A stretch of 64,000 bases of DNA from an uncultured Leptolyngbyaceae cyanobacterium (lineage in GTDB: Bacteria > Cyanobacteriota > Cyanobacteriia > Leptolyngbyales > Leptolyngbyaceae): the NCBI GenBank assembly GCA_938023035.1, contig CALIDI010000052.1, forward strand, positions 1-64,000. The letters run 5' to 3'. Positions 5,586-11,161 of the stretch are shown one piece after another. Below the pieces are notes generated by a model that was not told the origin of the DNA, ran no database searches, and was given only the letters and a program-made list of their open reading frames with translations. Positions within the stretch are counted from its first letter, which is position 1, and each line of letters begins with the position of its first letter. A program made the translations under genes and the position numbers.

Positions 5586-6926
5586 ATGAACATGACTGCA
5601 ACGCATCTTCGAACTGCCCTGCAAAGCCTCCCCGAGAATGCACCCGAGGCACTTGTCGATAGCCTTTTTGTGCCACATCTGTTAGAAGCGCTTGGGTTTA
5701 CCTCTGAAGAAATTTTTCCACAGTACAAAACAGGGAATGGAAGTGAAAAAGTCGATAAGGCGGCTCGTAAGAACACAGAGGAAGCTAGTTTTATTCAAAC
5801 CGGATCAAACCCGTATTTACTCGTTGAGTTAAAGGGCCGAGATGTCAACCTATCTAGTGGCACGGCTCAGTATCAGTCAACGGTCAAGCAATTAAAACGC
5901 TACCTTCTAGCCCCTAACTGCCAGTCAGCTCAGTACGGCTTAATTACTAACTCCTGCCATATTCAGCTCTTTCGCAAACATGGCAAGGTGGTTTTTCCAG
6001 CGACGGAGTGCCTCGTCCTAAATGAGGAAACCATTGATGGCATTGTTGCTTCCATTAGGCAGAAAATTGAACAACCGTCAAAAGCTTTAACAGTCGCTAT
6101 CTATAACAATAAAGGCGGCGTTGGTAAGACAACGACAACGGTTAATTTAGGGGCCATTCTGACTTTTCTGGGCAAAAAAGTACTGATGGTTGATTTCGAT
6201 CCAAATCAGCAGGATCTGACCAGGTCTTTGGGGCTTGCTCTCAGTGAAGATCAGGTGTTTCAGGCACTGACTGATCGCACAGTAGAGTTGCAAAGTACGA
6301 TTAGACCCTATCGCCATCCCTTAAAATCTGGAAATGCGCTCAGGTTTGATGTTGTGCCAGCGGACAAAAAGTTATCAGAATATCCTGAAAATTTACTGCG
6401 TAATCTGGTTAAGAAAGACACCTTGCATCTCAAGCTAGCACCCCTCAGACAGGAGTATGACTACATTCTGATTGATGCTCCACCAAACTGGCGGGTCTTT
6501 AGTCAGCTAGCTGTCTATGCTGCGGATGTTGTGTTAATTCCAACGAAGCACAACAACCTCTTCTCGCTAGAGAATGCGGCAACGGCGATCAAGCGGTTCA
6601 TTCCTGAAGTGCAGGCGGAGAAAGGAGACGGCAGCCCCGTTGCCTTGCCGATTTTTTTTAATGGTGAAAAAGCTACCCCGCCCCAGTTAAAAATGGCCCA
6701 TGAAGAAATCGGTAATATTATTAGGGCAGCGAAAAAAGAAGGATTTGACCTGTTGCCCTATTTTTTCCCCAGATATTCAGGGGCGAGGAAAGATCTCTAT
6801 ATTTCTGTGGTACCCAGCTACGCCAACATTGCCAGTGCCGCTTTTGCGCGAACACCCGCTGTTTATCGCGATCGCTCAGCCCATGAGCACTATAAGAGCT
6901 TAGTCAAGGAGTATTTTTTACAATGA
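5586..6926 (+). CDS. PD-(D/E)XK nuclease-like domain fused to ParA/MinD-type ATPase
   Basis: 446 residues. Residues about 1-160 resemble the N-terminal nuclease-fold domain of type I restriction R subunits and related proteins. A candidate PD-(D/E)xK core is visible: Asp57 (EKVDKAA), Glu81-x-Lys83 (LLVELKGRD) and a Q102xxxY106 motif (KQLKRYL) as in RecB-like nucleases. Residues about 167-446 are a ParA-type ATPase with the deviant Walker A KGGVGKT (176-182), the Asp-rich VDFDPNQQDLT segment and Walker B-like YILIDAPP. ParA ATPases form ATP-dependent dimers on DNA and partition plasmids, chromosomes or cargo. No N-terminal HTH is present; the nuclease-fold domain takes its place. The next gene overlaps by 4 bases (ATGA), so the two are translationally coupled. 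Nuclease activity is inferred, not shown. Confidence 0.85.
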   Translation: MNMTATHLRTALQSLPENAPEALVDSLFVPHLLEALGFTSEEIFPQYKTGNGSEKVDKAARKNTEEASFIQTGSNPYLLVELKGRDVNLSSGTAQYQSTVKQLKRYLLAPNCQSAQYGLITNSCHIQLFRKHGKVVFPATECLVLNEETIDGIVASIRQKIEQPSKALTVAIYNNKGGVGKTTTTVNLGAILTFLGKKVLMVDFDPNQQDLTRSLGLALSEDQVFQALTDRTVELQSTIRPYRHPLKSGNALRFDVVPADKKLSEYPENLLRNLVKKDTLHLKLAPLRQEYDYILIDAPPNWRVFSQLAVYAADVVLIPTKHNNLFSLENAATAIKRFIPEVQAEKGDGSPVALPIFFNGEKATPPQLKMAHEEIGNIIRAAKKEGFDLLPYFFPRYSGARKDLYISVVPSYANIASAAFARTPAVYRDRSAHEHYKSLVKEYFLQ

Positions 6927-7615
6927 GTAGCCTTAGCGACATTGGGAATCTAATGCACTTGTATCTGGATGAAATTAACCCTGGAGAGGGAACAGATGCG
7001 GCTGATTTTTTAGTTAGAGCGGCAGCTCACTTACTCAACCAAAAAGGTGGGCGCAACTGGGTACCTGTGATTGTTAAAGAAACAGGAAAAGATCAGTACG
7101 AGGTCATTGGTAATGCCTTTGTCTACGCAGTCGCTGAAGAGGCTGGCTTAGAGCGAGTGTGGTGCATTGTAGCGGATGACAGCGACGATACCTCTGAAGT
7201 TACAAAAGTTCTGGCTAGGGAAGCGTACCCCAAGATCAATCTATCCAAGGCATCCAGAGATGAGATTGTGGCGGCTCTAAGGTATTTAGCTGAGCAACCT
7301 AATAGTGTGCTTAGGACCATTCAGCCTGAAATTGCTGCAAATCGCATTGATGAAGCGCCCCGCCAGTATTGGAAGAGTTTTGACCCAATTACGACGCTCA
7401 AGTGTGGCATTACCAAAGGTAAGAGGCTCGATGCCCTGAAGCAGGTGTTTTATCTGGAGCCACAACCGCTGCCAGATAGGATTACGGATGTAAAACTCCT
7501 TGATACAATGACCACGGCTGAGCTAAGGGCGATCGCCAAGACACGAGGAATTGCTGGAATCAGTAAAATGAAAAAGGATGCGCTTGTAGAGGCTTTGAGT
7601 CATCCGATTGGCTAA
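6923..7615 (+). CDS. ParB-like protein with C-terminal Rho-N/SAP-like domain
   Basis: 230 residues; the ATG overlaps the stop of the ParA-fusion gene (ATGA). Residues about 44-85 (NWVPVIVKETG, YEVIGNAFVYAVAEEAG, VWCIVADD) follow the strand-helix order of the ParB/sulfiredoxin N-terminal fold, where PIVV, YELI-G-RR-A and vpviv recur. The arginines of the ParB GERRxRA box, needed for CTP binding in true ParB, are absent. The C-terminal 44 residues (MTTAELRAIAKTRGI and SKMKKDALVEAL) match the Rho N-terminal/SAP-like helix-extended-loop-helix fold that binds nucleic acid. The gene pair therefore looks like a ParA-ParB couple rebuilt with other DNA-binding parts. The ParB relation is a pattern judgement; the Rho-N match is stronger. 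Confidence 0.68.
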   Translation: MSSLSDIGNLMHLYLDEINPGEGTDAADFLVRAAAHLLNQKGGRNWVPVIVKETGKDQYEVIGNAFVYAVAEEAGLERVWCIVADDSDDTSEVTKVLAREAYPKINLSKASRDEIVAALRYLAEQPNSVLRTIQPEIAANRIDEAPRQYWKSFDPITTLKCGITKGKRLDALKQVFYLEPQPLPDRITDVKLLDTMTTAELRAIAKTRGIAGISKMKKDALVEALSHPIG

Positions 7616-9622: not shown

Positions 9623-9764
9623 CGACCTGGCCTTGCCCGACCTTGGTCGGTAGCGCATTGCGCCCCTTTACTGCTAGGGTTAAACCGATCCGCGAATTCA
9701 GTGGGAACCCTTTTCCGCGACATTGCGTCAAAAGGGGTGGAGCGTTTACAAGCGAATCCTACCC

Positions 9765-10421
9765 ATGAGTCAATCTCTTTCTGTATGCTGGTCATCAGTT
9801 CAGGCAATCACGGCTAAGGCACCTGTGCAAGCTGAAAAACTGTCGAATTATGATTTGGTGTTGCAGTGCCAGGCAGGGCACTGCCCTGATAAAGCCGCGT
9901 TTGCCGAGCTGGTGCGCCGCTACCAATCCCATGTTGAGAAGGTACTCTACCATCTGGCACCCGATTGGACTGATCGGGCCGATCTGGTGCAAGAAGTTTG
10001 GATTCGGGTATACCGCAATATTCGGCGGCTAAATGACCCGGTGAAGTTTCGCGGCTGGTTAAGTCGTATTGCGACCAACCTGTTTTACGATGAGCTGCGC
10101 AAGCGGAAACGAACCGCCCCGCCCCTCTCTCTGGATGCCCCCCTATCGGTTGAGGATGGCGAGATGGATTGGGAAATCGCGGCAGATACTCCAGGCCCTG
10201 ATGAAAATTTAACCACCCGTGAGTTTTATGACCAGTTGAATGCTGCGATCTCAGATTTACCTGAAGCCTTCCGAACCACGATTGTTTTACGCGAAATCCA
10301 GGGCATGGCTTATGAAGAAATCGCTGAAATTACGGGGGTTTCTCTCGGAACTGTCAAATCTCGCATTGCCCGTGCCCGGCTACGGCTCCAGACTCAACTG
10401 GAGCATTACCTGAATGGGTAA
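9765..10421 (+). CDS. sigG: ECF-type RNA polymerase sigma factor (SigG-like)
   Basis: 218 residues from the ATG at 9765; a TTG at 9723 in the same frame is less likely. Sigma-70 region 2 is clear (AFAELVRRYQSHVEKV, then DLVQEVWIRVYRNI and KFRGWLSRIATNLFYDELRK). Region 4 follows the linker (AISDLPEAFRTTIVLREIQG, YEEIAEITGVSLGTVKSRI), with the helix-turn-helix that reads the -35 element. There is no region 1 or 3, as in group 4 (ECF) sigma factors. The anti-sigma gene follows on the same strand after about 200 bases. This pairing matches the cyanobacterial SigG group used in envelope or oxidative stress; the exact symbol is inferred from that resemblance. Confidence 0.87.
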   Translation: MSQSLSVCWSSVQAITAKAPVQAEKLSNYDLVLQCQAGHCPDKAAFAELVRRYQSHVEKVLYHLAPDWTDRADLVQEVWIRVYRNIRRLNDPVKFRGWLSRIATNLFYDELRKRKRTAPPLSLDAPLSVEDGEMDWEIAADTPGPDENLTTREFYDQLNAAISDLPEAFRTTIVLREIQGMAYEEIAEITGVSLGTVKSRIARARLRLQTQLEHYLNG

Positions 10422-10624
10422 ATCTATTTATCTTCTCCTCACTGAGGGAATGGATGATTCTGCCGGGGATTTACTGCATAATGTGACTAAAAAGTTAAAT
10501 TCAAGCTCCTAAACTGATGCCCAGCTCAAAACCCCTGGCGACCGATAGATGGTTTTTAAGGTCTGGACTTGGGTTAGGTTTAGCTTAGTGGGTGCGCTCC
10601 TTTAGCAATAGAAGTGATGTCGTG

Positions 10625-11161
10625 ATGTCAAACTTTAACAACGAAACGGATTCTTCTGCTTTCCATGAAACGCTCCTGCGTGATCGCTTTGAGCTGCTGA
10701 GCGCCTATGTCGATGGAGAAGTTTCGGCAGCGGAGCGGCGGCAAGTTGAGGAATGGTTGGCGAATGATCCAACAGTGCAGCAACTGCATAGCCGTTTGAT
10801 GAAATTGCATCAAGCGTTTGAGGCGATGCCTGCACCTGTTGCCACCCAATCTCATCAAGAGCTTGCGAGTGCGGTGTTTGAGCGGGTAGAGCGGCGCTCT
10901 CGGCGACGCTGGTTTTTGGGTGGCCTAGCGGCTCTAGCTGCGGTGGCTGTTGGAGCGGTTTCGGTCTTGCTGCCCGGTGAGCAATCCCCTATTCCTCAGC
11001 TTGCTAATGAATCAACTAAGGAAGTCCCGCTTAAGTCTGGCAATACATCAGAGCCACTATTGATTGCGCTGGACAGGCCTCTTGTCGAGATTCCTAAATC
11101 GCCCGTTGCTCCGGATAGGTCTTCAGAGGGGCTAAAGCCTGAGCGGGAAGTGACTCAATAG
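10625..11161 (+). CDS. Anti-sigma factor, single-pass membrane protein
   Basis: 178 residues from the ATG at 10625; another ATG-like start at 10592 is upstream. The cytoplasmic N-terminal part (RDRFELLSAYVDGEVSAAER and VEEWLANDP) is the anti-sigma domain fold that holds the ECF sigma factor. It lacks the HxxxCxxC zinc motif. One transmembrane helix follows (WFLGGLAALAAVAVGAVSVL) and then a polar Ser/Pro-rich tail. The frame ends at TAG 11159-11161 but stays open for 55 more codons with similar composition, so the tail may be shortened by a nonsense change. Its place after the sigma gene supports the role of releasing the sigma factor on a membrane signal. Confidence 0.84.
   Translation: MSNFNNETDSSAFHETLLRDRFELLSAYVDGEVSAAERRQVEEWLANDPTVQQLHSRLMKLHQAFEAMPAPVATQSHQELASAVFERVERRSRRRWFLGGLAALAAVAVGAVSVLLPGEQSPIPQLANESTKEVPLKSGNTSEPLLIALDRPLVEIPKSPVAPDRSSEGLKPEREVTQ

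Follow-up and report, generated by a model that had tools for sequence, protein, structure and literature searches.

Introduction

The described systems closest to the locus reported here include the ParABS partition systems and the nucleases of type I and type IIG restriction. Movement of DNA and other cargo is the established role of ParA proteins. Their ParB partners carry a P motif, GxxR, and in the parts of PMC12704722 consulted an arginine-to-alanine change in this motif abolished nucleoside triphosphate (NTP) binding; according to the same parts, ParB-DUF3850 is the only ParB fusion that is consistently found beside parA. Here we describe a two-gene module in a 64,000-nucleotide stretch of DNA (hereafter the window) from an uncultured Leptolyngbyaceae cyanobacterium (GCA_938023035.1, contig CALIDI010000052.1, positions 1 to 64,000). 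Many cyanobacteria carry this cassette, in which a predicted DNA-cutting domain sits on a partitioning ATPase (gene A) and is paired with a ParB-like protein (gene B). We document its domain make-up, conservation, linkage, distribution and evolutionary pattern, and we tentatively read A and B as parts of a single ATP-gated DNA nuclease that would act in conflict with other replicons, a reading to which we give somewhat less than an even chance.

The original prediction had put the module forward as a candidate undescribed one, and full-text PubMed Central (PMC) searches returned no published description of it; the parts consulted of PMC1913061, PMC7156551 and PMC7159879 do not describe it either. 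No full-length family for the A fusion was present in PADLOC, NCBIfam or PHROGs, the best PHROG being phrog_164, a ParA-like partition protein that covered residues 165-444. PADLOC-DB gave no strong full-length match for A (best PDC-M28B, E 6.5e-7, residues 128-205, and mad2, E 8.9e-4, in the N-domain) and no match for B.

Domain architecture of protein A

Gene A occupies positions 5586..6926 of the window and encodes 446 amino acids (open reading frame and Pfam), followed by gene B at 6923..7615 with 230 amino acids (open reading frame, Pfam and an AlphaFold2 model); all features described for these two genes lie on the forward (+) strand. The two reading frames overlap by 4 bases, at the positions that had been predicted for them.

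The first 165 residues of A (5586..6080) form a predicted HSDR_N_2 or PD-(D/E)XK domain, as indicated by Pfam, the AlphaFold2 model and fold matches in the PDB. In Pfam, HSDR_N_2, the N-terminus of type I restriction R proteins, matched residues 26-131 with E 1.7e-5 for the domain alone; the score of this family (PF13588) was 25.3 for residues 1-165 and 22.9 in the full protein, at a curated cut-off of 25, and the family was matched in 42 of 46 relatives at E up to 0.1. Searching PDB sequences with the N-domain produced either no match or chance matches. The model, built from 46 aligned sequences, had a predicted local distance difference test score (pLDDT) of 93.9, and re-ranking of its structural matches with VIA-align 2 placed the nuclease domain of BpuSI first among solved structures (Z 12.8, 143 aa, 3.2 Å), together with the nuclease domain of DrdV (Z 12.0), the HsdR fragment 3h1t (Z 10.6, 120 aa, 3.2 Å) and, lower in rank, EcoR124I HsdR (Z 7.8). 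Mitoribosomal proteins were also matched (Z 8.4-9.1). The top ranks in Foldseek were 3ijm, which has a restriction-endonuclease-like fold, and BpuSI.

The putative active site is conserved. Among 71 distinct full-length A proteins (82 loci, less 8 identical sequences and 3 proteins under 400 aa in length), all of them recruited through similarity to the window protein, the acidic residue E21 on an early helix (5646..5648) was kept in 71, D57 of the PD motif (5754..5756) in 70, E81 and K83 of the E81-x-K83 motif (5826..5834) in 71 and 70, Q102 (5889..5891) in 71 and Y106 in 61. Four plasmid relatives with only 20-25% identity over the N-domain retain E21 and the PD...ExK pattern, and none of the 18 aligned N-domains, divergent plasmid copies included, departs from E21. 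In the plasmid rows of this alignment (A5) the D57 column is off by one; the match of the aspartate rests on a separate alignment, in which Q102 of these relatives is not aligned. The modelled domain thus has the predicted fold of the PD-(D/E)XK superfamily and its D...(E/D)xK motif. The nuclease-like domain with D57, E81-x-K83 and Q102xxxY106, which had been proposed as a pattern judgement to be checked by fold prediction and by conservation of D57, E81 and K83, held up in both respects.

An HSDR_N-like domain could also serve as a non-catalytic DNA-binding adaptor in a module that positions cargo, as McdAB does with carboxysomes, and many cargos are indeed positioned by ParA-type ATPases, as stated in the consulted part of PMC10241942. 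One A protein (L025, on contig C5 of genome G157) has lost both D57 and K83 while its frame is open and its Walker motifs are intact; it is presumably a natural, catalytically dead allele, and its persistence would suit an adaptor. We nevertheless consider this explanation very improbable, given that catalysis is hard to dispense with as a reason for the retention of active-site residues in 70-71 of 71 proteins and in plasmid copies with an identity of about 25%.

The remainder of A, residues 166-446 (6081..6923), is a ParA/AAA_31 ATPase domain (E 2.6e-35), with the Pfam match spanning residues 169-343. It contains a deviant Walker A motif, K176-GGVGKTT (6111..6134), both lysines of which are invariant, and the Walker residues K176, K181, D203, D205 and D297 were kept in 71 of 71 proteins. 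The expectation of a complete ParA ATPase with KGGVGKT at residue 176 is therefore strongly supported by sequence.

Protein B, a degenerate ParB-like partner

The AlphaFold2 model of B, built from 39 aligned sequences, had a pLDDT of 90.5, with a mean of 68 over the first ten residues. These belong to a conserved N-terminal peptide (residues 1-11, 6923..6955; G8 and L10 in 72 of 72 B proteins) that may contact ParA; its IGNLM-like sequence resembles, without equalling, the ParA-binding motif LG-R/K-GL of ParB. Residues 9-102 (6947..7228) have a predicted ParB N-domain fold, best matched by Myxococcus xanthus ParB (7bnr, Z 12.4, 90 aa, 2.3 Å). The Pfam match to ParB_N was weak in the window protein (residues 48-92, E 0.002, below the cut-off), and the family was matched in 39 of 39 relatives at E up to 0.1. 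With 18.5 bits against PF02195, for which the cut-off is 26.3, B would be missed by a search that applies the cut-off.

The place of the P motif GxxR, residues 63-67 (7109..7123), reads G-N-A-F-V in the window protein. Its register comes from a profile alignment with five canonical cyanobacterial ParB proteins that puts their GERR on residues 64-67, an alignment that is weak (probability 24%). In both candidate registers, 66 and 67, the arginine is absent from all 72 B proteins: 70 of them have F and 2 have L at position 66, position 67 holds I in 42, V in 29 and A in 1, and N64 is present in 72 of 72. Pfam scans of the window protein and 39 relatives recognised no HTH family in B, and its middle region resembles the helix-hairpin-helix (HhH) of ComEA. 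Residues 103-180 (7229..7462) are probably an HhH region, based on a fold match below the Z 8 caution level (ComEA 8dss, Z 6.7, 61 aa, 2.1 Å) and on a likeness of the motif.

The tail, residues 188-230 (7484..7612), is Rho_N/SAP-like. Its match to Rho (2a8v, Z 7.1, 43 aa, 1.2 Å) also falls below the Z 8 caution level and is independently supported by Pfam Rho_N (residues 193-225, E 2.2e-8), which was matched in 29 of 39 relatives. In one branch of B proteins a second copy of residues ~105-178 replaces this tail, and a 312-aa B from a 1.8-Mb genome has two stretches that both align to one and the same part of B. Judged by its sequence, B is a degenerate ParB-like partner that lacks the P-motif arginine and has no recognised HTH; the ParB-like fold and the Rho-N/SAP-like C-terminus that had been predicted for it were both recovered.

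Linkage and distribution of the module

A and B travel as a unit, which is strongly supported. B shared the locus with A in 81 of 82 A loci (some loci are counted twice in this set), overlapping it by 4 bases in 53, and a B match was present in 36 of 42 A-bearing genomes, so that the suggested co-occurrence of the two genes across cyanobacteria was found. Among 54 named loci that had been retrieved with A as the query, with flanks of up to 8 kb, A occurred in 54 and B in 52, followed by one family in 7 and others in 5-6; these lesser recurring neighbours mostly reflect synteny within Microcystis or within Okeania/Trichodesmium. Distances between A proteins and between B proteins were correlated across 65 loci (r 0.87), a value that shared ancestry alone can yield.

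A was found in 42 of 386 cyanobacterial genomes (E up to 1e-40), and the profiles of its N-domain and of B each matched 45 of 386 at 1e-6. Six of the 42 A-bearing genomes, three of them in one genus, had no B match (G078, G089, G179, G247, G280 and G306); A is split across contigs in G078. Loci in which no recognisable B lies downstream of A were L205 (G089, on a contig of 2,593,857 bp), L206 (G280) and L197 (G306). What matches B in G145 is a remnant of 48 residues, and G133 carries A and B on separate contigs. Nine genomes had a B match and no A at E 1e-40; two of them (G002 and G374) have a divergent A N-domain nearby, and in the other seven the B matches were short or distant.

Among the best 80 matches in the named collection, all full-length relatives of A were cyanobacterial except one on a 3.7-kb contig binned as Tatlockia (L044), which is most likely a misbinned contig. 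The N-domain profile A5 matched 0 of 249, 0 of 198 and 1 of 199 genomes from three other groups, the phyla of a Gallionellaceae, a Prevotella and a Paenibacillus genome, in samples that had no positive control. The single match (L244, G908) is weak (E 4.8e-6), comes from an 822-aa frame in a different phylum and is possibly HsdR-like. A viral origin was also considered and rejected: pattern-based scans of viral contigs gave no relatives of the A N-domain or of B, and in phage records B had no match and A matched 25 records, each over less than 80% of its length and, in the 20 listed, mainly via the ParA part.

Known copies are mostly chromosomal, with A on a contig longer than 1 Mb in at least 15 genomes, and some are plasmid-borne. 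In genome G042, copies sit on two plasmids, one of 35.7 and one of 55.1 kb, and divergent A/B pairs occur on pABRG53g (12.6 kb), pLBA (two L. boryana records), pPg_01 and a 30.7-kb Nostoc plasmid. The A protein of the window was 72% identical to Nostoc copies, 62-63% to that of the same-family genome G185 and 49-50% to that of G060, also of the same family. We read the spread of the module as patchy, because it occurs in 42 of 386 genomes and because the window copy is nearer to Nostoc than to copies from its own family.

Genomic context

A small paired test gave no sign of an association with defence islands, which the original prediction had suggested looking for. PADLOC applied to 114 ORFs (open reading frames) beside 19 modules and to 114 control ORFs from the same contigs revealed no enrichment, in a sample too small to exclude one; the test omitted a twentieth pair of loci (L213 and L233). 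The PADLOC counts are of families rather than ORFs, the leading 25 out of 75 and 25 out of 119 being listed. Among the families listed, the restriction genes beside the module were a type II methyltransferase and type II restriction endonuclease and a type IV restriction endonuclease, and those in controls a type I methyltransferase and specificity gene. On the module side, Pfam identified 138 families, of which the 25 listed were mostly housekeeping, with DUF29 (4 ORFs) and AAA_21 (3) at the top. A search for empty sites with flanking proteins matched 10 and 8 of 20 relatives, and apart from the window's own genome no contig had such matches near one another. Further along the window, judging from translations, positions 9723-10421 hold a sigma-factor-like ORF, which is followed by a probable anti-sigma protein at 10592-11161.

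The layout of the operon, a ParA gene followed by a ParB-fold gene, also invites reading it as a divergent partition or maintenance cassette. ParA would then move B-tethered DNA, the nuclease domain would resolve multimers or tangled copies or act as a DNA-binding arm, and chromosomal copies would have been captured or would serve multi-copy chromosomes. Copies on several cyanobacterial plasmids fit this explanation. On pABRG53g the divergent pair is the sole annotated partition-like cassette, beside a CyRepA1 replication gene, in a gene table that is incomplete; its B is a short 134-aa frame that ends at the end of the record. Canonical ParB (PF02195, E up to 1e-10) was present in only 5 of 10 tested A-bearing genomes, and in four of these (G000, G308, G251 and G091) every copy lay on contigs other than that of A, the fifth, G014, having it on the contig of A; 7 of 14 control genomes also had canonical ParB.

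We regard a partition or plasmid-maintenance role as a serious rival to conflict, though as less likely than not. Besides the missing P-motif arginine and the lack of a recognised HTH in B, no parS-like repeat was shared in word counts of 61 upstream and 64 downstream flanks, although parS may lie far away, and no recurring repeat or palindrome appeared near the operon in the tests made. The flank words were clade-level ones near the promoter and start codon, plus a common GCGATCGC word, which we take to be HIP1, and the repeats in the flanks of the window were short and two-copy. Other partition genes are also found on three plasmids that carry the module or a divergent pair: two Nostoc plasmids with close copies also have ParM, one of them with two ParA/ParB pairs as well, and the third, with a divergent pair, has canonical ParA/ParB. 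The presence of A on megabase contigs and the absence of the module from most sampled cyanobacteria likewise argue against a partition cassette. Stacked partition-related cassettes (among ParM/StbA, ParA/ParB, ParG and ParDE) were observed alongside the A/B module or a divergent form of it on the Nostoc sp. UHCC 0870 plasmids of loci L110, L112 and L113.

Evolution of A in Microcystis

Selection was assessed in ten genomes of one genus, assigned to Microcystis. There, A had a mean ratio of nonsynonymous to synonymous substitution rates (dN/dS) of 0.66, the highest of 15 local families, compared with 0.12 for B and 0.01-0.36 for thirteen others, each of which occurs in 4 or more genomes. The ratio of nonsynonymous to synonymous polymorphism (pN/pS) was 0.66 for A (bootstrap 0.48-0.88), 0.55 for its nuclease part (0.34-0.96) and 0.72 for its ParA part (0.50-1.07). 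Changes in A were clustered, with 0 of 1000 codon permutations being as uneven. Windowed pN/pS reached ~2 near window residues 209-227, 259-278 and 379-402, and 2.6 at residues 99-118 of the nuclease domain, where pS was very low; these windows were chosen after the fact, and the whole-gene ratio is below 1. No variation was found at the ten catalytic and Walker positions checked. The four-gamete test was failed by 3038 of 6216 informative site pairs, 34% within 60 bases and 54% beyond 300, a rise with distance as recombination would give.

Clustered fast evolution is a frequent pattern in arms-race genes. Relaxed constraint is a possible alternative for A, and plain decay is argued against by the blocks free of amino-acid change that separate the hot patches. 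Across L234-L243, mosaic and fast-evolving patches of A occur while the overlapping partner B is conserved.

The Microcystis data also bear on a role in repair or recombination, in which the HhH-like and SAP-like parts of B would bind branched DNA, A would cut it and the ParA domain would set the place or time. HhH and SAP-like domains in company with a PD-(D/E)XK nuclease do recall structure-specific nucleases, the C-terminal part of B shows weak similarity to FAN1 (Z 4.9) and to T4 endonuclease VII (Z 4.3), and long maintenance in Microcystis fits such an enzyme. However, a structure-specific nuclease would leave the clustered fast evolution of A unexplained, the closest matches of the nuclease domain are restriction enzymes despite a weaker match to a Holliday-junction enzyme (Z 5.9), and the module is absent from ~89% of sampled cyanobacterial genomes. 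We regard this role as improbable.

Proposed function

The conflict reading, in which A and B form an ATP-gated nuclease directed at other replicons, draws support from the conserved active site, the linkage of A and B, the patchy spread of the module and the fast, clustered evolution of A. In such a machine, ATP-bound A would dimerise and sit on DNA non-specifically, as ParA proteins do, while B would recognise a DNA state or structure, rather than a parS sequence, through its HhH-like and SAP-like parts. The conserved N-terminal peptide of B may contact the ParA domain of A, and clustering or the ATP cycle could then pair two nuclease domains, so that DNA is cut. The most likely role would be conflict with invading or competing plasmids and with phage DNA, chromosomal copies acting in defence and plasmid copies in competition between plasmids.

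Several observations weigh against conflict. Beyond the A genes without B, the presumably dead allele, the unenriched neighbourhood, the plasmids that bear other partition genes and the limits of the windowed ratios, the module is near-core in Microcystis (10 of 12 genomes, with shared flanking genes), unlike most defence systems. One of the ten Microcystis A copies has an in-frame stop, and in a Nostoc-type set of seven the ratio for A was 0.14-0.15, so that fast evolution is seen in Microcystis only.

With greater reserve, we consider it possible that the module represents conflict systems of a new class, whose restriction-type nuclease would be licensed by an ATP switch of the ParA type in place of a helicase or a structural maintenance of chromosomes (SMC) motor; a ParB fold without NTP motif and parS reader would have been refitted with structure-binding domains as the targeting subunit, and the fast-evolving patches of Microcystis A would be the interface with a factor of the invader. 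If true, a ParA fused to an apparently active restriction-type nuclease, conserved across one phylum and paired with a refitted ParB, would tie DNA positioning to DNA cutting. The module offers a testable two-gene system for cyanobacteria that bears on plasmid and phage control there, and B is a branch of the ParB fold that threshold-based surveys would probably overlook.

Comparison with known systems

The anti-plasmid systems Wadjet and Ddm, compared by description only, resemble the module, as read here, in setting an ATPase and a nuclease against plasmids, and differ from it in the families of both. The ParB-CTPase-fold fusions of PMC12704722 share with B a ParB-type N-domain fused to other domains, whereas the parts of that source consulted name no fusion to HhH or Rho_N.

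With ParABS, the module shares a ParA with a deviant Walker A motif, a ParB-type N-domain encoded in the overlapping next gene, a conserved N-terminal peptide in B and occurrence on plasmids. In contrast, a nuclease-like domain takes the N-terminal place in which other ParA proteins have an HTH or no domain at all, its B lacks the P-motif arginine and a recognisable HTH and has HhH-like and Rho_N/SAP-like parts, and no parS-like repeats were found near its operon. By sequence, therefore, the layout fits ParABS and the P motif does not, while HTH and parS are unsupported.

With the type I and type IIG restriction nucleases (the HsdR N-terminus, BpuSI and DrdV), the module shares the predicted fold and the E..D..ExK..Q pattern. 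It differs from them in having no superfamily 2 (SF2) translocase, methylase or specificity subunit, and it falls outside type I restriction in that HsdM and HsdS do not recur in its loci, where only A and B do, and in that the place of the HsdR helicase is taken by an ATPase of the ParA type.

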